A stretch of DNA of 35,254 bases from an uncultured Bacilli bacterium (GTDB taxonomy: Bacteria; Bacillota_I; Bacilli_A; RF39; UBA660): positions 1 to 35,254 of the forward strand of contig CALVQE010000008.1 in NCBI GenBank assembly GCA_944355355.1. The letters are read 5' to 3'. Numbering within the stretch: position 1 is the first letter of the stretch; every line of letters starts with the position of its first letter. Shown piece by piece: positions 179-35,254 of this stretch. Both the position numbers and the translations under genes were made by a program. Under the pieces are notes generated by a model. The model was not told the DNA's origin and made no database searches. It saw nothing but the letters and a program-made list of their open reading frames with translations.

Positions 179-577
179 CTAATCATTATTAAGACAACTA
201 CCAACATCCCAAATACATTTAAAACATTCTTGATAATTTGTACTATAATTACTCCATCCATCAACCAAACTAAACACAAAATCAACAATAGAAGGTAAAA
301 AGAAAATACATACGCCAGCAATCAAACGCATAACTAAAGACTTGGCAGCCTTTTTAATTTCATCATCCTTAGAACCTACAATTGCTTTAAAAAGATCCAT
401 CATTCCAAAACCTATAATTAATATAGGTACCAAAATCTTAGCAATTCGGACAATATGACCGATCATAATAAAAGTAGAACGAAGACCAGTACAATAGTTA
501 ACATCAGCAGCTGACACAGAACAACCTACAAACAATGCCCCAAGAAAAACAAGGATTCCAATAACTTTTTTTTGCAT
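179..577 (-). CDS. VirB2/T4SS-type two-helix pilin-like protein, short form
   Basis: This 132-residue protein has a signal peptide (residues 1-23, ending SVSAA). It then has one Cys (YCTGL), a first membrane helix (about 40-62), a short charged loop (SKDDEIKKAAKS), a second helix (about 80-105) and a Cys-rich tail with a C-x2-C-x6-C pattern. The helix-loop-helix resembles the T4SS_pilin/TrbC-VirB2 family, whose members form secretion or conjugation pili or sit as small membrane subunits. The predicted topology puts both ends outside, so the cysteines could form disulfides. The start has a GGGAGTG ribosome site and overlaps the upstream stop as TAATG, so it is translationally coupled to the preceding pilin gene. 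The family assignment is by pattern only; the function is unknown. Confidence 0.75.
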   Translation of the reverse strand: MQKKVIGILVFLGALFVGCSVSAADVNYCTGLRSTFIMIGHIVRIAKILVPILIIGFGMMDLFKAIVGSKDDEIKKAAKSLVMRLIAGVCIFFLPSIVDFVFSLVDGWSNYSTNYQECFKCIWDVGSCLNND

Positions 578-1416
578 TATTTACACTCCCTAACATTAAA
601 CACACATTTTTGACAAGCATCAAAAGAGCCTTCAATTTGAGCAAAATCACTAACCAAAGAGAAAACCGTACTAACAATCGTTGGGATAAAGAAAATAACC
701 ACACCAGCTAAAACTCGCATCATTAAAGAACGCGCTGACTTCTTAATCTCTTCATCCTTAGCCCCAGTAACAGCTTTAAAGAAATCAATCATTCCAAAAA
801 GAATAATAATAATAGGAATAACAATTTTAAAAATCAAAACAATATTTCCTATAAACTGTAAAGGTGCCTTTAACTGCGTACAATAACCCGTTTCATCAAC
901 AAGCTCTTCTTCATTATTATCAGTCTCAGTATTACCAGAATCCCCAGGATTACCGGTTTGCTCATAACTACTATTATAATAATATGTATCCCCTGGAACT
1001 CCAGGACCATCTCCATTATTTAAAATAATTCGATCTTGATTACTTATTGTTGCCCCCATAGCAACCAACCGATCATAAGTATAAGTTGTACAATCTCCCA
1101 CTTGATCACACAAAACATATCGATCCCCATTCATATAAAAATACATTCTCGTCTGACCATACTTCGTAGCATAATATGCTTCCTGAGCCTCTTCATTATA
1201 AGAATAAGTAAACCCCTGGTAATCAACCTCTTTAGCACTACTATTAAAAGAAAGACCATTAGCATTTTTTTCTACCTCAAAACATCCTGGTTGATAGCCA
1301 CCACATAAAGCAAATTTCCCTTCATCCGTTTCATAATAATAACTTGTACCATATGCTGAAACATTTAAAAGATTAAAAGTCAAAAAGACACATACACCTA
1401 TTAAAAACTTTTTCAT
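577..1416 (-). CDS. VirB2/T4SS-type pilin-like protein with about 160-residue extracellular head
   Basis: The 279-residue protein has a signal peptide (1-21). A Tyr-rich head with several Cys (residues 22-175) follows, then an acidic linker (NTETDNNEEELVDE). The common base comes last: YCTQL, helix 1, loop GAKDEEIKKSARS, helix 2, and a C-x2-C-x5-C tail. The head has no family I recognise and does not resemble the heads of its neighbours. It is the middle gene of a three-gene operon with TAATG stop/start overlaps on both sides. Its own ribosome site, GGAGGT, lies inside the end of the upstream gene. Whether the base inserts in the membrane as a pilin subunit or simply anchors the head to the cell surface cannot be told from sequence. 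Confidence 0.75.
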   Translation of the reverse strand: MKKFLIGVCVFLTFNLLNVSAYGTSYYYETDEGKFALCGGYQPGCFEVEKNANGLSFNSSAKEVDYQGFTYSYNEEAQEAYYATKYGQTRMYFYMNGDRYVLCDQVGDCTTYTYDRLVAMGATISNQDRIILNNGDGPGVPGDTYYYNSSYEQTGNPGDSGNTETDNNEEELVDETGYCTQLKAPLQFIGNIVLIFKIVIPIIIILFGMIDFFKAVTGAKDEEIKKSARSLMMRVLAGVVIFFIPTIVSTVFSLVSDFAQIEGSFDACQKCVFNVRECK

Positions 1417-1943
1417 TAATTACTCATACCTCCAATCGAACAAGAATTACTGCAAGAATCAATATTAACATTACAATCTCCATTTAATAAACACTCCGTA
1501 CAACAACACCAATTCACTTGATAATCACTCCAATCTTGAACTAAATTCAAAGCAAACTGAACCAGACCAGGCAATAGAAAAACAAATACACCTGCAACCA
1601 CTCGTAAAGCAATAGACCTAACAGCCTTTTTAATCGCATCATCCTTAGATGCAGTAACAGCTTTATACAAATCAATAAGGCCAAAAAGAATAATCAAAAC
1701 CGGTACAGCAATCTTAACAAAATTCAAAGTAATTCCCAAAAAACGCATCGGAACTCGATAATTTCTACTTGCACAAATATCCTCAACATTTGTATCAACA
1801 ACAGAATAATCTGTCTCATCATCAAGTAAAATAAGCGAATCGCCAACTATAAAACCATCATTGAAAACCCTAGCCGAAGTAGAATTAATACATAGAAAAA
1901 AGCTTATTCCCAAGACTAAAAACACTAAAATCTTTCTCATCAT
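1416..1943 (-). CDS. VirB2/T4SS-type pilin-like protein, medium form
   Basis: The 175-residue protein has a signal peptide (1-24) and an acidic extracellular segment of about 30 residues. The family base follows, with a Cys before helix 1 (ICASR), loop ASKDDAIKKAVRS and helix 2. Its tail is unusually rich in cysteine (WCCCTEC, then further Cys to the end), giving nine Cys after helix 2 where the paralogues have three or four. It is the first gene of the three-gene operon. The promoter and terminator block upstream (1944-2015) is a near copy of the one at 3286-3357. The two initial ATG codons are adjacent; the first follows a GGGGAT ribosome site. Confidence 0.75.
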   Translation of the reverse strand: MMRKILVFLVLGISFFLCINSTSARVFNDGFIVGDSLILLDDETDYSVVDTNVEDICASRNYRVPMRFLGITLNFVKIAVPVLIILFGLIDLYKAVTASKDDAIKKAVRSIALRVVAGVFVFLLPGLVQFALNLVQDWSDYQVNWCCCTECLLNGDCNVNIDSCSNSCSIGGMSN

Positions 1944-1970
1944 AAAATCCCCACTTTAATCGCTAAAACC

Positions 1971-1976
1971 ATTATA
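1971..1976 (-). promoter_or_regulatory. Extended -10 promoter for the three-gene pilin operon
   Basis: The minus strand reads TGATATAAT, an extended -10 element, about 30 bp before the first ATG. No strong -35 is visible. The same element recurs at 3313-3318 in the duplicated block. Confidence 0.6.
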
Positions 1977-1990
1977 TCAGTAAAACTACC

Positions 1991-2015
1991 AAAAAACTAG
2001 TAAATTTTTACTAGT
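1991..2015 (-). terminator. Intrinsic terminator of pilin gene 2011-3285
   Basis: A 9-bp perfect stem (ACTAGTAAA/TTTACTAGT) overlaps the TAG stop codon of the pilin gene and is followed by six T on the minus strand. It directly precedes the promoter of the next unit. Confidence 0.8.
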
Positions 2016-3285
2016 CTTCGCTTTCTTTAACATAACATGCACTTGAGTTTGGTGTCATTAAACATGCCTCACAATTATCAAAAGCACTAGTTCCCCCATT
2101 ACTTACAATATCCGAAGCAACATCATACACCGCATCAATTATTGACGGCAACAGAAAAATCAAAACACCAATAACCACTCGCATCCCTATATTTTTAGCA
2201 TGCTTTTTCATATCCTCTTCTTTACCAGAAGTAATAACTTTAATAAGATCTACAATACCGACAATAATAATAATCGCTGGCACAAGTATCTTAGCTATAA
2301 AAAATGCCAACCCAATAAACTTAAGTGTCCGTGCAACATTACCATCATTACAAAACAAAGCTAAAGAAATATTACAGTTTTCTCCTGAGCACAAACCATT
2401 TGGATTAAAACCTTGATTATTATCATCATCGGGTTGTTCAGTATTTCCATAATCAGGATTATGATAACGTATTAATCGATTTGTAGAATCCAAAAACAAA
2501 TTGCGATCAAATGAGCAAACCACATCTCCATTATTAATCTCTCCACCACCAGAAACAATAACCGCATCATTTGAAACTAACAAATAACTTGCAATAGTTC
2601 CACAATAAACACTTTCAGGAAACTGATTTTCTCGAGCTTTATCAAGAACAGAAGTTTTAAAATGCTCAATACTTGTATCAATAATTATAGGATTAACTTC
2701 TGAATTACTAAAACTCATAATTTGCTGAGTATAATTTTCCGTAACTGTATTATATTTAAAACGAAAAGTAACATCGCCTAAACTATTACTAATAAGGGAC
2801 TGATAAGTTTTAGAATATAACACTTCATTTTCTCCAACATTATTTTCAGGATCATCTTCATCACCAGAAGAACTAGTAAGCGAAGCAGAATAAGCTTCCG
2901 TATACCAAGTATCATAATCATTAATAAAAGCATCTTTAGACTCTTCATCGAAAAAAAATCGATAACGAACCACGCCAAAGTTTAACCCAAGATCCGTAAC
3001 ACGATAACTAACAATATAAGACGGACATTCATGATTTTCATTAAATTGATTTACGACATCATCAACATCATCCATATATGTCTCAATAGCTCTTTCTTGA
3101 TCAAGTTGATGACCATCAAAATATTGAGCCCCAGTAACAGTACCATCGTCCCAAAAATGAATATAAGCGCCAATATAATCTTCTTCATATCTACATGTCT
3201 TAATTATCTCAGCAGCCGAAACAATTGAAATATTTAACAAAAAAAAGATCAAAAAAAGCAATACAAATTTTATCTTTCTCATCAT
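2011..3285 (-). CDS. VirB2/T4SS-type pilin-like protein with about 270-residue extracellular head
   Basis: The 424-residue protein has a signal peptide (1-24, ending SAA). A long acidic head of about 270 residues follows, then a linker containing CSGENC, and the common base: FCNDG, helix 1, loop GKEEDMKKHAKN, helix 2, tail C-x2-C-x7-C. The last 130 or so residues are almost identical to those of gene 3353-4474, while the heads are unrelated. This is what head exchange or gene conversion over a constant base would leave. The gene has its own extended -10 promoter (3313-3318) and terminator (1991-2015), so it is a separate transcription unit. I recognise no fold in the head. Confidence 0.75.
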   Translation of the reverse strand: MMRKIKFVLLFLIFFLLNISIVSAAEIIKTCRYEEDYIGAYIHFWDDGTVTGAQYFDGHQLDQERAIETYMDDVDDVVNQFNENHECPSYIVSYRVTDLGLNFGVVRYRFFFDEESKDAFINDYDTWYTEAYSASLTSSSGDEDDPENNVGENEVLYSKTYQSLISNSLGDVTFRFKYNTVTENYTQQIMSFSNSEVNPIIIDTSIEHFKTSVLDKARENQFPESVYCGTIASYLLVSNDAVIVSGGGEINNGDVVCSFDRNLFLDSTNRLIRYHNPDYGNTEQPDDDNNQGFNPNGLCSGENCNISLALFCNDGNVARTLKFIGLAFFIAKILVPAIIIIVGIVDLIKVITSGKEEDMKKHAKNIGMRVVIGVLIFLLPSIIDAVYDVASDIVSNGGTSAFDNCEACLMTPNSSACYVKESED

Positions 3286-3312
3286 AAAATCCCCACTTTA
3301 ACCGCTAAAAAC

Positions 3313-3318
3313 ATTATA
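3313..3318 (-). promoter_or_regulatory. Extended -10 promoter for pilin gene 2011-3285
   Basis: The minus strand reads TGATATAAT about 28 bp before the ATG, inside the duplicated block. The -35 region is poor. Confidence 0.6.
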
Positions 3319-3332
3319 TCAGTAAAACCACC

Positions 3333-3357
3333 AAAAAACTAGTAAATTTTTACTAGT
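3333..3357 (-). terminator. Intrinsic terminator of pilin gene 3353-4474
   Basis: A 9-bp stem (ACTAGTAAA/TTTACTAGT) overlaps the stop codon and is followed by T6 on the minus strand. Confidence 0.8.
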
Positions 3358-4474
3358 CTTCGCTTTCTTCAACATAACATGCACTTGAGTTTGGTGTCAT
3401 TAAACATGCCTCACAATTATCAAAAGCACTAGTTCCCCCATTACTTACAATATCCGAAGCAACATCATACACCGCATCAATTATTGAAGGTAAAAGAAAG
3501 ATTAAAACACCAATAACCACTCGCATTCCTATATTTTTAGCATGCTTTTTCATATCCTCTTCTTTACCAGAAGTAATAACTTTAATAAGATCTACAATAC
3601 CCACAACAATAATAATTGCTGGTACAAGTATCTTAGCTATAAAAAATGCCAGTCCAATAAACTTGAGTGTACGTGCAACATTACCATCATTACAAAACAA
3701 AGCTAAAGAAATATTACAGTTTTCTCCTGAACACAAACCATTTGGTTGAAAGCTCTGATTCCCTGGATCATCAACATCCACTTTTTCTCCATTTACCCGA
3801 TCCAAAACATTAGCATTATCACCAGTTGAAGCAACAGCGGAAGTCAGTAAAACACATTTGCCTCCAGTATCATCTCCATTACAAATTTCGTAAATTCTTG
3901 TTGGACATGCTGTTGAATCTCGTAAGCGAACGATAACATCATTGTATTGAAATATAGAAGAAGTAGTTACGGCACTAGTATCTCCCGTATTAAAACGTAA
4001 AGTAAAATTCTCATATTCACAAACCCAATCATATTCTGTATCAATAACAGTATCACCACCACTATTTTTACAAGAATTTTCATTAACATTTTGAGTAGAT
4101 AAACTTGGATTTAAAGTGGCTTGCAATAACGAACTAGGACCGTTGTTAATAGCATAAATATCATAAGTAGCAAAACCACTTTCATCATCCAAATCAACAT
4201 AATAATAAATGTTTGTAGGACAAGCATAAGGTCGAGATTCGTTATCTGTTTCCAAATCAGCTATCGTAAAATTTGTTGTATTTATTGTACAACGATTCCC
4301 ATAAGAACCAGAAGTACAAGTAAAAGTCGGATCAGCACAATCAAAATTAATACTAATCCTACCATATCGGGTATTATAAACACAATCCAATACTTCAGCA
4401 TCCGCCTTAACATTTCCTAAAAAAAATAACATAAACCCCAAAAGACAAACAAAAATATACCTAAATCTAATCAT
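3353..4474 (-). CDS. VirB2/T4SS-type pilin-like protein with about 220-residue extracellular head
   Basis: The 373-residue protein has a signal peptide (1-24). Its Cys-rich, Thr/Asn-rich head (about 25-240, ten or more Cys) differs from all its neighbours. The linker and base (CSGENC, FCNDG, helix 1, GKEEDMKKHAKN, helix 2, Cys tail) are nearly identical to those of gene 2011-3285. A TATAAT -10 box lies about 30 bp before the start, just beyond the terminator of the upstream gene, and a GGAG ribosome site precedes the ATG. The number of paired Cys suggests an oxidised, exported head. The two-helix family is assigned by pattern; the role of the head is unknown. Confidence 0.75.
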   Translation of the reverse strand: MIRFRYIFVCLLGFMLFFLGNVKADAEVLDCVYNTRYGRISINFDCADPTFTCTSGSYGNRCTINTTNFTIADLETDNESRPYACPTNIYYYVDLDDESGFATYDIYAINNGPSSLLQATLNPSLSTQNVNENSCKNSGGDTVIDTEYDWVCEYENFTLRFNTGDTSAVTTSSIFQYNDVIVRLRDSTACPTRIYEICNGDDTGGKCVLLTSAVASTGDNANVLDRVNGEKVDVDDPGNQSFQPNGLCSGENCNISLALFCNDGNVARTLKFIGLAFFIAKILVPAIIIVVGIVDLIKVITSGKEEDMKKHAKNIGMRVVIGVLIFLLPSIIDAVYDVASDIVSNGGTSAFDNCEACLMTPNSSACYVEESED

Positions 4475-4506
4475 TTGAACGCTCCACTCTTCTTAACAAG
4501 ATTATA

Positions 4507-4552
4507 CAAAAAAAAACATAAAAAAACTAGTGCTTTTACACACTAATTTTAC
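4507..4552 (-). terminator. Intrinsic terminator of pilin gene 4556-4924
   Basis: A 10-bp stem (AAAATTAGTG with CACTAGTTTT, one G-U pair) sits a few bases after the stop and is followed by a T-rich tail on the minus strand. Confidence 0.8.
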
Positions 4553-4555
4553 TTC

Positions 4556-4924
4556 CTACCATGCGTCTTGAGCATAAGTATCACATTCTCCATCTCCTGG
4601 ATTTGTAATACATGTCCGACATACTTGCCAATCATCTTGCGCTCCAGATTCAGAGAAATTAGAAACAACTCCTAACACAACATTAACAATCGTTGGAATA
4701 AAGAAAATCAAAACAGCTGAAATAGCTCTCATTGCCAAAGACTTTGTTGCTTTTTTTATTTCATCATCCTTAGCAGCCACAACAGCTTTCCCTAAATCTA
4801 ACATTCCCCATACGATTAACAAAATAGGAATAACAATTTTTACAACTAATAATATATAACCTACAACTTGCCAAATATTAGCCGTATTCACACAAAAACC
4901 ATCAAATTCAGTTCCTGGAGTCAT
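4556..4924 (-). CDS. VirB2/T4SS-type two-helix pilin-like protein without signal peptide
   Basis: The 122-residue protein starts with about 12 polar residues and a Cys (GFCVN). It then has helix 1 (about 18-42), loop AKDDEIKKATKS, helix 2 (about 62-86) and a C-x2-C-x7-C tail. Unlike its five paralogues it has no cleavable signal peptide, so helix 1 would itself have to direct insertion. It has its own strong promoter (4955-4983), a GAGGTA ribosome site and a terminator, so it is transcribed alone. It may be the simplest or ancestral form of the array. No VirB4, VirB6 or coupling protein is present in the window. Confidence 0.75.
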   Translation of the reverse strand: MTPGTEFDGFCVNTANIWQVVGYILLVVKIVIPILLIVWGMLDLGKAVVAAKDDEIKKATKSLAMRAISAVLIFFIPTIVNVVLGVVSNFSESGAQDDWQVCRTCITNPGDGECDTYAQDAW

Positions 4925-9740: not shown

Positions 9741-11615
9741 TTACGCCTCATTTACAATTTTTCGCAAAGCATTCAAAATCTCTACCATTGCCCAAGTATC
9801 CTGAGCACAATAAACACGCAAAGCATCTTGCTTCTCTTTTAGCACTTCTTTACACATCTTTTCATAATTAGCATACTCAACAATTGCATCAGTACCATTT
9901 TTAACAACCAAATCCTTATATGAAAGTTCACTAAAAACCGGCAAAGTTTTTTTAATCGAAAAAGAGCCACTTAAATTCTCATCATAAAAGTTAAACGTTT
10001 CTAAATCCTCTCCCTTAAAACCTAACCTTTCATACAACTCTTTATTATTATTTAAAAGCCATAGCAAATCAAATCCACGATTATAAATCTTCATTAAAGA
10101 CTCCTTATATTTTGGAAAAATCATAGCCAATTCTTTTATTCTTCCTTTCTCAAAAGCCACATTTTGAGCAAACAAAGTTCCTTTATCGGGATCAATATAT
10201 TTTAATAATTCCTTGATCAACTCTTCTCTTTCATCACCTGTTGTTTGAGCCAAAAAAACAACATTATCTTTATACGGATCACAAACACCTGGCGAAGATT
10301 CAATATGTAAACTAAACTCAAAAGGACTTTGAATATAAGGCCATTCTCCCTTAAATCTTGGTAATGGACAAGGAAAAGTTTCAAAATCTAAATGATAAAT
10401 CGGATATTCCAAACAAGCCAAAGCTTTTCTAATTTTCTCTTTATGAACAAATTGACTATGATTTAAAACACATTCCCTTTGAATCACATGATTTTTCTTT
10501 GTAATCCATCTCTCTGGAATATCTAAAAGATGCAAATATCCCGCATTAATAAGTTCCAAACCTTTCAATCTCTTATTGTCATCTGTTACAAACCCAAAAG
10601 GATTATTCACATAACACAAACTACTATTTTTAAGTGGAATACACTTCCCACATACACTTTGAAAATACTTACAACAATTCTGTGCCTTATAACCACAAGA
10701 AATACCAAGCGGACAAGGTTTCGTATCCATATCATGAATAGCTTTTAAAATACTTTCATTTTCTTTTTCAATCAAAGGTAAATACTCCAAAGTAACCTGA
10801 TCTAACTGAAACAAAGTAATCAACTCTTCGCCATGATGTTCATGATAAACAGGTTCATTATCTTTATAAGTCCCATCAAAAACATAATTTTGATTTAACA
10901 CGGCCAAATAATAATGAAACTTTGGTAACTTATCTTCTTGATGTCTTAACTTATACATAGACTCAATAAAAAATCTTTGAACAGCTAAATCATGAACATA
11001 CTCACCAACCCTATAACGATCAAAAAGCTTTTGTCTTTCCCGTTCATAACTTTCTAAAGGCATTTCGTTTTCTAAAGGATATCCTTCAATCTCACCCTTT
11101 AATTGATATATGTTGTTCTTTTTCCTGAAAATTGAATACTTCTTTCCTTTACGATATCCCCCAGCTAAATCCGTATACTTCTTAGAAGTAGTAGCCTTTA
11201 CCTCAACAATATTAATACATTTTTCGCTTTCATTATAAACATCCACATAACATAAATATCTAATCCCATTCAAACAAAACTCATACTTTACTTGATCATG
11301 CGTTTCCTGAGCATAAATAGTTTTACCTCCAAACATCAGAGAAACAATTCTACCTGCCTCAAATTCTACCCGTTTATAATAAGGAAGCATAGCCTCAAGT
11401 TGTCGATTAACAACCTCCGTTTTATCCACTACATTCCCATCTTCATCAACATCAACCATAGCCTGATAAAGCTCAGAAATTTCACTTTGATACTCCTCTT
11501 TCTTATACATATCATAAGAAAGATCACCATCTAAAGCATCCTTTTTAACCCCCTCCAAAGCAACATACCTTGGACACCGCGAATAATTTAAAAATCGTGT
11601 CTTAGAAATAGTCAT
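9741..11615 (-). CDS. DUF2779 protein: PD-(D/E)XK nuclease plus DEDD-type exonuclease-like domain
   Basis: The 624-residue protein starts with the family's SKTRFLNYSRCPRY. The first half looks like a Cas4/RecB-type nuclease: an IVEVKATTS motif near residue 135, followed by a cysteine cluster (CPLGISCGYKAQNCC, CGKC, near 300-325) that could bind an iron-sulfur cluster or zinc. The second half has an RNase H-like exonuclease pattern: LDFET (near 410), AQNVAFEKGR, and YCAQDTWA near the C-terminus. DUF2779 proteins are common in mollicute-related bacteria and have no settled role; DNA or RNA processing is likely. Its ATG overlaps the stop of the pseudopilin gene as TAATG, so the two are translationally coupled. 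Confidence 0.85.
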   Translation of the reverse strand: MTISKTRFLNYSRCPRYVALEGVKKDALDGDLSYDMYKKEEYQSEISELYQAMVDVDEDGNVVDKTEVVNRQLEAMLPYYKRVEFEAGRIVSLMFGGKTIYAQETHDQVKYEFCLNGIRYLCYVDVYNESEKCINIVEVKATTSKKYTDLAGGYRKGKKYSIFRKKNNIYQLKGEIEGYPLENEMPLESYERERQKLFDRYRVGEYVHDLAVQRFFIESMYKLRHQEDKLPKFHYYLAVLNQNYVFDGTYKDNEPVYHEHHGEELITLFQLDQVTLEYLPLIEKENESILKAIHDMDTKPCPLGISCGYKAQNCCKYFQSVCGKCIPLKNSSLCYVNNPFGFVTDDNKRLKGLELINAGYLHLLDIPERWITKKNHVIQRECVLNHSQFVHKEKIRKALACLEYPIYHLDFETFPCPLPRFKGEWPYIQSPFEFSLHIESSPGVCDPYKDNVVFLAQTTGDEREELIKELLKYIDPDKGTLFAQNVAFEKGRIKELAMIFPKYKESLMKIYNRGFDLLWLLNNNKELYERLGFKGEDLETFNFYDENLSGSFSIKKTLPVFSELSYKDLVVKNGTDAIVEYANYEKMCKEVLKEKQDALRVYCAQDTWAMVEILNALRKIVNEA

Positions 11616-11953
11616 TATTCCACAATCTCTGCCTTATAAGAATCCCCAGACTTAATCACCTTAATCTTAGCCTGACTATAATCTAAACTCTCTGTATCCA
11701 TAAGAAGACCCTCATTCACTAACTCACTACCAAACAAATAAGTTTCTTCATCCTGAAATTTATCCTCATTCATCTTTGCATAAGTTTCCGCAGCTAAAAT
11801 CAATGTATTTGTTTGAACCTCTTTAATCTCATCCGTATTATAAGCTTCCTTTAAAGCATAACTTCCTCTGATAATTCCTATAGCAAACACAATAGCTAAA
11901 AGTGAAAACAAAATAACTAATTCTTTAATCGTATAACCATTCTTATTCATCAT
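11615..11953 (-). CDS. Type IV pseudopilin-like protein (class III signal)
   Basis: The 112-residue protein begins with a short basic leader, then G-Y-T-I-K-E-L and a hydrophobic helix (about residues 8-28). This is the class III signal cut by prepilin peptidase between G and the aromatic residue, with the usual Glu at mature position 5. The rest is a small globular domain with no Cys. Such proteins build type IV pili, competence pseudopili or type II secretion filaments, but no pilus ATPase, platform protein or prepilin peptidase is in the window. It heads a two-gene unit with the DUF2779 nuclease, with an extended -10 promoter (11981-11989). A link to DNA uptake and processing is possible but only inferred. 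Confidence 0.75.
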   Translation of the reverse strand: MMNKNGYTIKELVILFSLLAIVFAIGIIRGSYALKEAYNTDEIKEVQTNTLILAAETYAKMNEDKFQDEETYLFGSELVNEGLLMDTESLDYSQAKIKVIKSGDSYKAEIVE

Positions 11954-12609: not shown

Positions 12610-13787
12610 TCAGCCAACCCGATATGGATTACTAGCACTTCCATCACCCAATTTTAGACTATCAGCCTTTAGATTTAAGGTGGGCCTTACACCGTACGAG
12701 GCATTCACGACGTTGAGGTTGACCACGTGGCCGTCCGAACTAACGCTATGAACATACGCAAAGCTGCCATTGAAGCTGTGAGAAGTCATAGTCCAGTACT
12801 CATTCCCTATATATAAATAATACCCTGAATTAGACGTACTATATCCTCCAGCTAAAACAACTTCATCCGTTGTAACAAGTCCGATCGGATAACTTAAATC
12901 GCCATTTCCTGTAATTTCATCATCTGCGGTAAAGCGATCATTTTGCTCTGTACATGTAAGTCTTGGATATTGCGTTCCTGTACTATCCCATGGGCCATAA
13001 CCCCAACGGTAGTAAGTTGTACTTGTACCTGCACCGGTACCACTATTGTATGAATTAAACGAACGATCATTACAGAATAAAGTGTCACTGATATAGCTTG
13101 ATAGACCTTTGTCTTCAATATTTGTATTATACCAACTATCTAAATAGGTTTTAATCGTACTATCATTATCATTATCATTGGCATGCGTAGCATCATAGGT
13201 GCTCGCGCCTACCGTCCCATACATATACCCAACATAGGCATTGTCATTATAAGATGAATTATAGGCACTCGTTCCAACTTGACGATCTTCACTTGATTCA
13301 CCATTCGCGTGAGCACTTGTTCCATCATAGATGATTCTTATCGAGCCATCCCCATTAATACGGATAATTCTCCAGTAATAATCGCCAAACTTAACATAGT
13401 TATTTGTAACATTACCACGGTAATAATAAGAGGTGCCATAATCATCTGGTGCACTGCATAAGTAGCCATTTGTACTTTCAGCACTTGTTACTTGCACTGT
13501 TCCATCTTCACTCACTACTGGACATGCTCCAGTTTTGTCTAACTGGTCAATGATTTGGCCAACTACACCTTTAACAAAGTACAAGGTACATTTGGTGTTG
13601 GTTACGGTTAGGTTGTTTACGGATACACTCCAATCATCAGTATTTAAAACGGAAAGTTTTGATTTTGTTCATAAATAGCAAAACTACTATAAAGATAAAC
13701 TCCTGTAATTAATAGGATACAGCAAACAGTAAAGATAATAATTCCAGCCTTCTTATGATCCTTTTCTTTAAACTTTTCTTATTTCAT
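12610..13787 (-). pseudogene. Broken surface-protein gene with C-terminal lectin-like variable domain
   Basis: The largest open frame (12610-13584) lacks its N-terminus, which can be read upstream in pieces. An ATG at 13785-13787 with an AGAGGGAT ribosome site is followed by a TAA at codon 3. The same frame then encodes a basic stretch and one membrane segment (AGIIIFTVCCILLITGVYLY). A shift of one base near 13644-13660 joins the next frame (LNTDDWSVSVNNLTVTN). The promoter at 13855-13883 is intact. The body (NGYLCSAPDDYGTSYYYRGN, then GDYYWRI) and the C-terminal YWTM...GVRP domain are paralogous to gene 33303-35179. About 100 bp encoding the segment before GVRP are GC-rich and hypervariable relative to that paralogue. 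With two lesions it is probably not expressed as a full protein. Confidence 0.75.
12678..12790 (-). other. Candidate DGR-type variable region
   Basis: Between conserved TACTGGAC and GGTGTAAGGCCC the codons are mostly NNC or NNT. They differ from the paralogue at 33373-33483 mainly at codon positions 1 and 2, while TTC-AAT-GGC, GTT, TCG, GTG and GTG-x2-TCG codons stay fixed. GC is about 55% by hand count, in sequence that is otherwise strongly AT-rich. Confidence 0.55.
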
Positions 13788-33302: not shown

Positions 33303-35179
33303 TCAGTCAACTGTATATAGATTACTAGCTGTTCCATCTCCCAATTTTAGACTATCAGCCTTTAGATTTATAACGGGCCTTACACCTTCCGAGCCACGCA
33401 CGGTGCTACTACTGCTCACACCACCGTTCGAACCGACGCGACGAACATCTGCATTAAAGCCATTGAATCCGATAGGCGACATGGTCCAGTAAGTGTTGCC
33501 TGTATATAGATAATATCCATAATTATCCAAACCATATCCTCCTGCTAAAACTACCTCGTCTGTATTAACAAGTCCTATTGGATATATTAAATCCCCATTT
33601 CCTGTTACTTCATCATCTACTGTAAAGCGATCATTTTGATTTGGACATGTAAGTCGTATTCCATTACTAGAACTATTCCATCGATAACGAGTTTCACTTG
33701 TCCCTATACCAGTCCCACTATTGGAAGAACCAAACGAACGATCATTACAAAATAAGGTATCTGCAATATATTGTTCATACTCTGTCCCTAATAAGTTTGT
33801 TTCATACCATTCATCTATTTTTCCTTTAATGGTACTATCTGTTATGTTAGCATACGTATCTTCATAAGTTGTTCCTGTTCCACTTATGGTCTTTACATTT
33901 GCTGTTGTAATGGTGTTTTCACTTTCTAGGTAATATAATGTCGTACAACTTGAACCACCATTATTACATGTATATTTTCCTACTTGACTTCCGTCATATA
34001 TACTTCTTGTATAATCCGTGAGTCTAAATTCTCCGGTTGTTTTATCAAAAGTATAACTATCCGCATAATAGTAATTTCTTGCTAATGGTCTTGTACTTCG
34101 ACTTGTTCCATGATTCTCTTCATATCCTCCTTCTACACTAGTTCTAGTATAACTATATACATATGCATAGGAAGAATCATAATAAGAATCTATAACATAC
34201 ATTGTTGTACAACTTGTTGATGTGCTTGCACACGTATATTTTCCTACTAATTCTTCACTCCATACAGCTTGTGTAGGATCTGTTAAAGTATATGTTCCTG
34301 TTGTTGTATCAAAGGTATAACTATCTGCATAATAGTAATAATAATTTAAGCTTTGACTGCTCGTTGTTTCACTTGTTTCAGGTTCTCCCCAATAATTCTC
34401 TCCATACATATAGCCAACATCCGCATTGTTATTACCACGTGAATTGTATGCACTGGTTCCTATTTGAGTATAATCTGTACTGGCATCATTATATCCATTT
34501 TTTAAAACATCACTCTTATTTGATAAAGTATCAATTACACTGGCATCTCCAGCATAAATCATCCTTATACTTCCGTCACCATTGATTCTTAGTATTCGCC
34601 AGTAATATCCTCCAAACTTAACCCAGTTGTTTTCTACATTTCCACGATAGTAATAACTAGTTCCATAGTCATCTGGGGCACTACATAAGTAACCATTAGT
34701 ACTTTCACCACTAGTCACTTGAACTGTTCCATTGTCCCTAACCGTTGGACAACCTTCAGTATCTGCATCTGCTAAGATACTACATTGAATGGAATCTTCA
34801 CCATATTTATCTACACATTGTTCATAATCACTTGGCATATGATCAATATAACTTGCTGTAATCGTAATCTTACTCACAAAAGAAGTATTCATGACATCTA
34901 CATCTTCCATCGTAATATTCTCATCCATCCATAATCTTAAATCATAACTTACACTTTCATTATGATCTAAATATCCTGTTTTGAGTTTAAAAGATGTTAC
35001 TGCATTATCTAATGTCGTTTGTACAACTTCATTACTAGATAAAAGTACTGGTGTATCTTCGTTTAGTTCAACATTAATTGCCTCATAACGACTCAAAGTA
35101 GATGAATCTAAAACTTCAAGATTTACTTGATAAGAAGCATAAGAAGAACATTGATTGGTAATCGTAAATGTATAAGGTG
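33303..35179 (-). CDS. Surface protein with lectin-like variable C-terminus, 3' exon of an intron-interrupted gene (partial)
   Basis: The open frame runs without a stop from 33303 to the group II intron boundary at 35179, about 625 codons; the 5' exon lies outside the window. An apparent TTG start at 35096 is an artefact. The exon-side sequence reads PYTFTITNQCSSYASYQV and continues in an adhesin-like region (35179-34800). A module follows (NGYLCSAPDDYGTSYYYRGN, GGYYWRILRINGDGS), shared with the broken gene at 12610. Next come two internal repeats of about 55 residues (YYADSYTFD...LTD...VGKYTC...CTT), at about 34195-34348 and 33930-34083. The C-terminal lectin-like domain (LFCNDRSF, YPIGLVNTDEVVLAGG, YWTMS, GVRPVINLKADSLKLGDG) contains the variable region. 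It is probably exported and membrane- or wall-bound. Substrate unknown. Confidence 0.75.
33373..33483 (-). other. Candidate DGR-type variable region
   Basis: Between TACTGGACC and GGTGTAAGGCCC the codons differ from the paralogous region at 12678-12790 mainly at positions 1 and 2 of NNC/NNT codons, for example ATC/CAC, AAT/TTT, GAT/TAT, CGC/AGC, AAC/GAC, AGC/GTC, ACC/GTC and CGT/AAT. Interspersed TTC-AAT-GGC, GTT, TCG and GTG codons are identical. GC is about 56% by hand count, against strongly AT-rich flanks. Downstream sequence (AATCTAAAGGCTGATAGTCT and on) is identical in both genes. Confidence 0.55.
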
Positions 35180-35254
35180 ATTAAGTAGACGTATATATCA
35201 CTATATACGTCCCTTTCAGATCTGGGCGTGCAGCTTTCCCGCACCCAGCTCTTC
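35180..35254 (-). mobile_element. 3' end of a group II intron (domains V and VI), partial
   Basis: On the minus strand, 35252-35218 folds as domain V. It has the AGC triad, a C-U-G-G-G stem paired with C-C-C-A-G, a two-base CG bulge, a GTGC/GCAC-side upper stem and a GAAA loop. Next, 35216-35180 folds as domain VI: AAGGGACG pairs with CGTC-T-(A)-CTT, leaving a single bulged adenosine seven bases from the intron end, which reads ACTTAAT with the usual terminal A-Y. The bulged A is the expected lariat branch point. The rest of the intron, with any reverse transcriptase, is beyond the window. The intron is on the same strand as the gene it splits, so splicing could restore the reading frame. Confidence 0.8.

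Follow-up and report, generated by a model that had tools for sequence, protein, structure and literature searches.

Tandem VirB2-like pilins with exchangeable heads, probable parts of a chromosomal type IV secretion system in a family of gut Bacilli

The stretch of DNA analysed here (the window) is an entire contig, C8, of 35254 bases from the genome of an uncultured Bacilli bacterium (G000, the window's own genome), and close to one end it carries six tandem genes whose products share a membrane-spanning base and differ in the heads that precede it. These six genes are best explained, with a probability of about 0.7, as VirB2-like pilins of a chromosomal type IV secretion system (T4SS) that belongs to the core gene set of one family of gut Bacilli with small genomes and for which a mechanism is proposed below. 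The list of parts, their linkage, the order of the pilin slots, the exchange of heads and the types of head are supported by the sequences of the window genome and its relatives.

A check of the open reading frames (ORFs) of the window places all six genes on the minus strand between 179 and 4924; the slot names used for them are those of the comparison across the genus described below.

4556 to 4924, minus strand: slot g6 pilin, 122 aa, headless and VirB2-like, lacking a signal-like N-terminus; the array starts with this gene; match to PF18895 with E=1.4e-5.
3353 to 4474, minus strand: slot g4/5 pilin, 373 aa, with a signal-like N-terminus, a Cys-rich head of ~240 aa, the base and a CxxC-x8-C tail.
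2011 to 3285, minus strand: second copy of the slot g4/5 pilin, 424 aa, with a different head of ~290 aa and a base region 96% identical.
1416 to 1943, minus strand: slot g3 pilin, 175 aa, with a short head; its orthologues mostly have 58-346 aa before the base.
577 to 1416, minus strand: slot g2 pilin, 279 aa, with a beta-rich head that the genus retains and that seems to consist of two repeats.
179 to 577, minus strand: slot g1 pilin, 132 aa, with a signal-like N-terminus and a head that is nearly nil.
1931 to 2403, unstranded: copy 1 of a 473-bp direct repeat, comprising the base of 2011-3285, the spacer and the first codons of the next gene.
3273 to 3745, unstranded: copy 2 of the same repeat, 96.0% identical, which together with copy 1 brackets the head of 2011-3285.

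In the base a Cys is followed by a first helix, a loop of the KDDEIKK type, another helix and a tail of the form C-x2-C-x(5-8)-C. In the alignment of the six proteins 19 columns are invariant, among them the three Cys of the tail and lysines in the K-rich loop. An earlier sequence-only reading of this DNA had described six tandem ORFs with a common two-helix, K-loop and Cys-tail base, and both the ORFs and the alignment agree with it; its tail motif, C-x2-C-x(5-7)-C, was right in the three cysteines but not in the last spacing. Hydropathy assigns two membrane segments to the base, adjacent hydrophobic helices separated by a short charged loop, and a signal-like hydrophobic N-terminus is found in five of the six proteins, the exception being 4556-4924; these features together predict a topology in which heads and Cys-rich tails lie outside and the K-rich loop inside. 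The residues that precede the conserved base domain number 33, 183, 63, 318, 267 and 15 in the order of the window, and the six heads are mutually unrelated, as had been claimed, since sequence likeness is limited to the shared linkers. In contrast to their heads, the genes 2011-3285 and 3353-4474 have in common the 473-bp block that runs from the base through the spacer to the next start codon. The array is not a chance observation, 1-12 copies of such pilins being present in 36/36 genus genomes searched.

Among pilin families, Pfam T4SS_pilin (PF18895) is the best match for all six genes (E 1.4e-5 to 0.05), and a relative from the adjacent VirB6-proximal slot (L040:10047-11942) reaches 27.7 bits, above the curated cut-off of 26.6, under which the six window genes themselves stay by 1 to 12 bits; at this strength the matches support the description of the base as VirB2-like. 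The structural model of the g2 protein contains a hairpin (residues 177-217 and 221-258, pLDDT mostly ~80) and a beta-rich head that apparently consists of two repeats (pLDDT near 80), and the model of g4 is poor (pLDDT 54). A PDB search with the pilin that carries a C39 head, described below, gave no match. Another PF18895 match in the genome, on contig C9 (L009), was dismissed, as it sits in a 498-aa multi-helix membrane protein.

The window contig ends 178 bp beyond the array, and two features mark this end.

1 to 75, unstranded: dispersed repeat, also present on contigs C63 and C22 of the window genome.
75 to 276, unstranded: overlap with contig C36, 206 aligned bases at 98% identity, corresponding to L010:64-269 of the same genome.

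The 75-base dispersed repeat is the likely cause of the contig break at window base 1. Past the overlap, C36 carries a seventh pilin with a C39-peptidase-like head, then virB6, virB3 and virB4, the last in two parts. In a relative (G016) the array leads straight into the same T4SS genes on a single contig, and in the genus 26/26 arrays seen together with a full virB6 are located directly upstream of it, on the same strand, with a gap of -18 to 127 bp. The sequence-only reading had noted that no other secretion-system gene was present, which holds for the window, because the window, itself a whole contig, stops just past the array, but not for the genome, where the T4SS genes follow on C36. An array standing apart from its secretion system is therefore not borne out, and an orphan array was rejected on account of the contig end and the genus-wide linkage to virB6. 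The genus arrays often adjoin the housekeeping genes pyk and M18-type peptidase. In three loci (L033, L034 and L035) the array is split around the T4SS, with extra pilins downstream of virB4 and a few unrelated genes between.

The adjoining genes were identified with NCBIfam and Pfam profiles. The C-terminal part of VirB4 matches NF045975 with E=2.4e-100 and the N-terminal part with 3e-15, and P-loop_TraG is over its Pfam cut-off; VirB6 matches NF045889 (Mbov_0396) with E=3.7e-9 and has 5 hydrophobic segments. The match of VirB3 is weak (E=0.007), and VirB3, VirB4N and VirB4C align in order to one ATPase of the Mbov_0397 type from the integrative and conjugative element (ICE) of Mycoplasma; at L010:3559-6201, VirB3 and a VirB4 made of two ORFs are separate and collinear with that single fused protein. 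The coupling protein VirD4 (PF02534, 187.6 bits; NF045973, 279 against a cut-off of 250) is encoded in the genus at a second locus, together with a VirB1-like protein with a C39_2 domain (wall hydrolase) and a 252-aa membrane-anchored protein. In 30 loci of sister genera virB4 is followed downstream by virD4 on the same strand, and wherever the VirB1-like gene can be recognised it is placed between the two, so that the window's genus appears to have divided an older single cluster. A lone VirD4-like ATPase of ~350 aa (PF02534) also recurs away from the T4SS in several genomes (L068:6782-7831 on G000:C13, L069:1116-2171 and L070:6954-8009), and beside it in L068 a small ORF looks like a MerR-type regulator.

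VirB4 is present in 29/32 sampled genomes of the family, including the window's own, the other carriers having 64-79% identity, and VirD4 in 54/59; VirB4 relatives in other families of the class have an identity of 35% or less, and a plasmid search returned, among its best ten matches, only VirB4 relatives at <30%. Those relatives that have names, among them Candidatus Ventrenecus and Candidatus Coprovivens, are uncultured Bacilli, and most of them come from animal guts. The relaxase families PF03432, PF02486 (Rep_trans) and PF03389 (MobA_MobL) were not found in the window genome with their controls working, and PF01076 (Mob_Pre) gave no match there, but its control was silent too; PF03432 is over cut-off in 10/59 family and 8/36 genus genomes. 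Judged by its gene content, the cluster is a T4SS of the chromosome, poor in relaxases and equipped with an array of VirB2-like pilins, and belongs to the core of the family. A conjugation operon just outside the window, into which the array would simply fit, had been named in advance as a finding that would speak against a separate display set: the array is indeed the upstream part of a T4SS cluster, but this cluster is not an ordinary conjugation operon, no relaxase being found and the system being a family-wide chromosomal core. An ordinary ICE was ruled out as the leading explanation on the same grounds of core distribution and the lack of a relaxase match.

When each genus pilin is assigned to the slot of its best-matching base in the window genome, 35 arrays show the order g6, g4/5, g3, g2, g1, C39-slot, virB6, with order inversions in 12/470 pairs (random mean 234; lowest of 2000 shuffles 171), and a complete array comprises 5-8 pilins. 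Compared with the own orthologue, bases have a median identity of 50-66% and heads one of 20-42%, falling to 10% for slot g3 heads; head identity was computed over the longer head. The slots differ in how their heads behave: every genus orthologue of g6 has 11-27 residues before the base, g2 keeps a head of like size and sequence in most genomes, and in g3 and g4/5 the heads vary in length and family. In particular, the head of 2011-3285 matches the slot g3 pilin of L040 (E ~1e-96), whose base scores 142 bits against g3 and 62 bits against g4; the head of 3353-4474 is related to L038:11491-12675 (E=2e-42). A slot g1 pilin of L043 that seemed to carry a g2-type head was a misassignment (110 vs 109 bits), and the cross-slot comparison rests for this reason on g3/g4 pairs. 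The comparison of slots and heads across the genus supports the view that the two-helix base carries exchangeable heads, and recombination between blocks of base plus spacer, of the kind represented by the 473-bp repeat, could insert, delete or exchange them. In a few proteins (L018:8358-10817, L018:14376-16001 and L028:6120-7613) the base is central or near the N-terminus and is followed by a long C-terminal extension, some heads being on the other end.

The type of head depends on position. The 53 VirB6-proximal pilins include matches to NlpC/P60 (13), Amidase_3 (10), Peptidase_C39_2 (10) and Peptidase_M15_4 (2), counts that overlap since some pilins have two domains. Among 69 distal-slot pilins, wall-hydrolase matches number 0 and 2 proteins match Big_2 Ig-like domains; the window's own heads have no family match. 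The distal-slot pilins, such as those of the window, may be adhesins.

A mechanism can be proposed from these features, with assembly, surface exposure and cargo as its conjectural steps. Each pilin would be a membrane helical hairpin in the topology predicted above, and VirB4 and VirB6 would recruit the pilins into a short pilus or the rim of a channel, in which the hydrolase-headed pilins would open the wall, the headless pilin would act as filler or as the major subunit of the helix, and the variable-headed distal pilins of the window would serve as adhesins or receptors that choose the partner cell. VirD4 would feed a substrate for delivery to another cell, most likely a protein, as VirD4 is present and the relaxase is missing. 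Heads would diversify by recombination between near-identical base-plus-spacer blocks. More generally, and tentatively, a Gram-positive T4SS pilus could be a modular display device with fixed slots, exchangeable adhesin-like heads and wall-cutting enzymes on the pilins nearest to VirB6; a single assembly would then recognise the target, open the wall and deliver protein to neighbours.

Several points weigh against the assignment to a pilin-bearing T4SS. The PF18895 scores of the six window genes, 14.2-25.6 bits, are all under the curated cut-off, and generic two-helix membrane proteins (Frizzled, rhodopsin) are also weak matches to the base; a search of solved structures with the base profile returned mostly rhodopsin-like helical matches with E 0.08 or worse. 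The models of g2 and g4 have a pTM of 0.31, and the fold search with the g2 model gave no usable match (best E 0.09, TM ~0.1). VirB6 and VirB4 score under the NCBIfam curated cut-offs, for VirB4 owing at least in part to the division of its gene, and VirB3 likewise falls short; no VirB8 was matched by Pfam or NCBIfam among the linked genes, where a diverged VirB8 is possible. Relaxase types beyond those tested could exist. All the evidence comes from fragmented metagenome assemblies, C8 and C36 being joined by the 206-base overlap and not by one read, and the delivery of protein is a proposal.

The same genes can be read as conjugation machinery, namely an ICE, either decayed or resident, that has its relaxase at another place or obtains one from mobile elements and whose array is a mating pilus. 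The best resemblances of VirB4, VirB6 and the pilin are to proteins of Mycoplasma ICEs, VirD4 resembles the CD1115 conjugal family, and some relatives have relaxases and extra coupling proteins; against these resemblances, three control-backed relaxase families are missing from the window genome, the system is single-copy, is found in ~90% of family genomes and often has its array beside pyk and the M18-type peptidase, and the relaxase of several genomes adjoins the gene of a different coupling protein on the same contig (G026:C14, G015:C1, G009:C12), which makes this origin quite unlikely. The array could alternatively form a fibre for surface display alone, with variant pilins for adhesion and nothing exported, by analogy with what is proposed for Bartonella Trw. 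The diversity and exchange of heads are what such a fibre would have, and for Trw tandem TrwL copies, host-specific adhesion and the lack of a coupling protein are reported (PMC2883598); yet 54/59 genomes of the family retain VirD4, and sister genera have it at the same locus as virB4, which would be the expectation for a system that exports a substrate. A purely adhesive role is unlikely.

It is very improbable that the array as a set is without a role and that its heads are unrelated secreted proteins, annexed or in decay: low head identities and an internal stop in a few array ORFs of these metagenome-assembled genomes would fit decay, but slot order and base identity are conserved, heads are in frame and wall-hydrolase domains are recognisable in the VirB6-proximal slot. 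A defence system was also considered and rejected, as PADLOC matched neither the three pilins with heads nor the two proteins of the VirD4 locus that were submitted to it. The preferred explanation remains a family-core T4SS with VirB2-like pilins.

Elsewhere in the window, a small ORF at 11615-11953 has a prepilin-like N-terminus (MMNKNGYTIKELVILFSLLAIVFAIGI) and possibly encodes a type IV pilin-like protein. Two large Tyr/Ser-rich ORFs, at 12610-13584 and 33303-35096, have sequence in common (of the CSAPDDYGTSYYYRGNV type), the former weakly matching DUF6273, and a Group II intron match (Rfam RF00029, 47.5 bits) occupies 35180-35253 at the right contig end, beside a large surface-type ORF.

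A 2025 review of T4SSs states that Gram-positive systems lack VirB2 pilins, with Patescibacteria as the sole exception, and that it is a long-standing open question whether dedicated effector translocators evolved in Gram-positives (PMC12857230); against this background, a family of gut Bacilli appears to keep a pilin-array T4SS, largely free of relaxases, as part of its core. The fusion of a pilin to an NlpC/P60, Amidase_3, C39 or M15 domain would tie the opening of the wall directly to the pilus. Descriptions of large heads or hydrolases fused to VirB2-like pilins were not found in the accessible text of the open-licence literature, which is not proof of novelty.

The closest known likenesses are to Patescibacteria (Saccharimonadia) and to the Mycoplasma ICE core. 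In Patescibacteria, where the likeness is one of gene content as distinct from VirB4 phylogeny, relaxase-poor chromosomal T4SSs are reported to have 2-11 VirB2-like genes in tandem, Southlakia epibionticum having six (PMC12102498; PMC12857230). Both systems are monoderm and chromosomal, mostly relaxase-free, and combine VirB4/VirB3/VirB6/VirD4-type genes with a tandem VirB2-like array; in contrast, large N-terminal heads and fused wall hydrolases are not described there, as far as the accessible text goes (PMC12102498), and the phylum is another, the window family being Bacilli. The Mycoplasma ICE core Mbov_0395-0396-0397 (NF045849, NF045889, NF045975) has homologous VirB6 and VirB4, and the pilin is weakly similar to Mbov_0395; here, in contrast, VirB3, VirB4N and VirB4C are separate genes, a complete array has 5-8 pilins with heads, the cluster is a fixed chromosomal core and the scores are below curated cut-offs. 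Bartonella Trw shares tandem, diversified pilin duplicates (TrwL), a chromosomal T4SS and host contact, but it is Gram-negative, it has no coupling protein, and large TrwL heads are not described in the part of the source available (PMC2883598). Anaplasma phagocytophilum has 8-15 VirB2 paralogues with hypervariable termini, in which the pilins are small and the variable regions short, and it is a Gram-negative intracellular pathogen (PMC3556328). The slot-conserved, head-exchanging pilins of the Bacilli would provide a model, open to testing, of how widespread uncultured gut bacteria recognise a partner.

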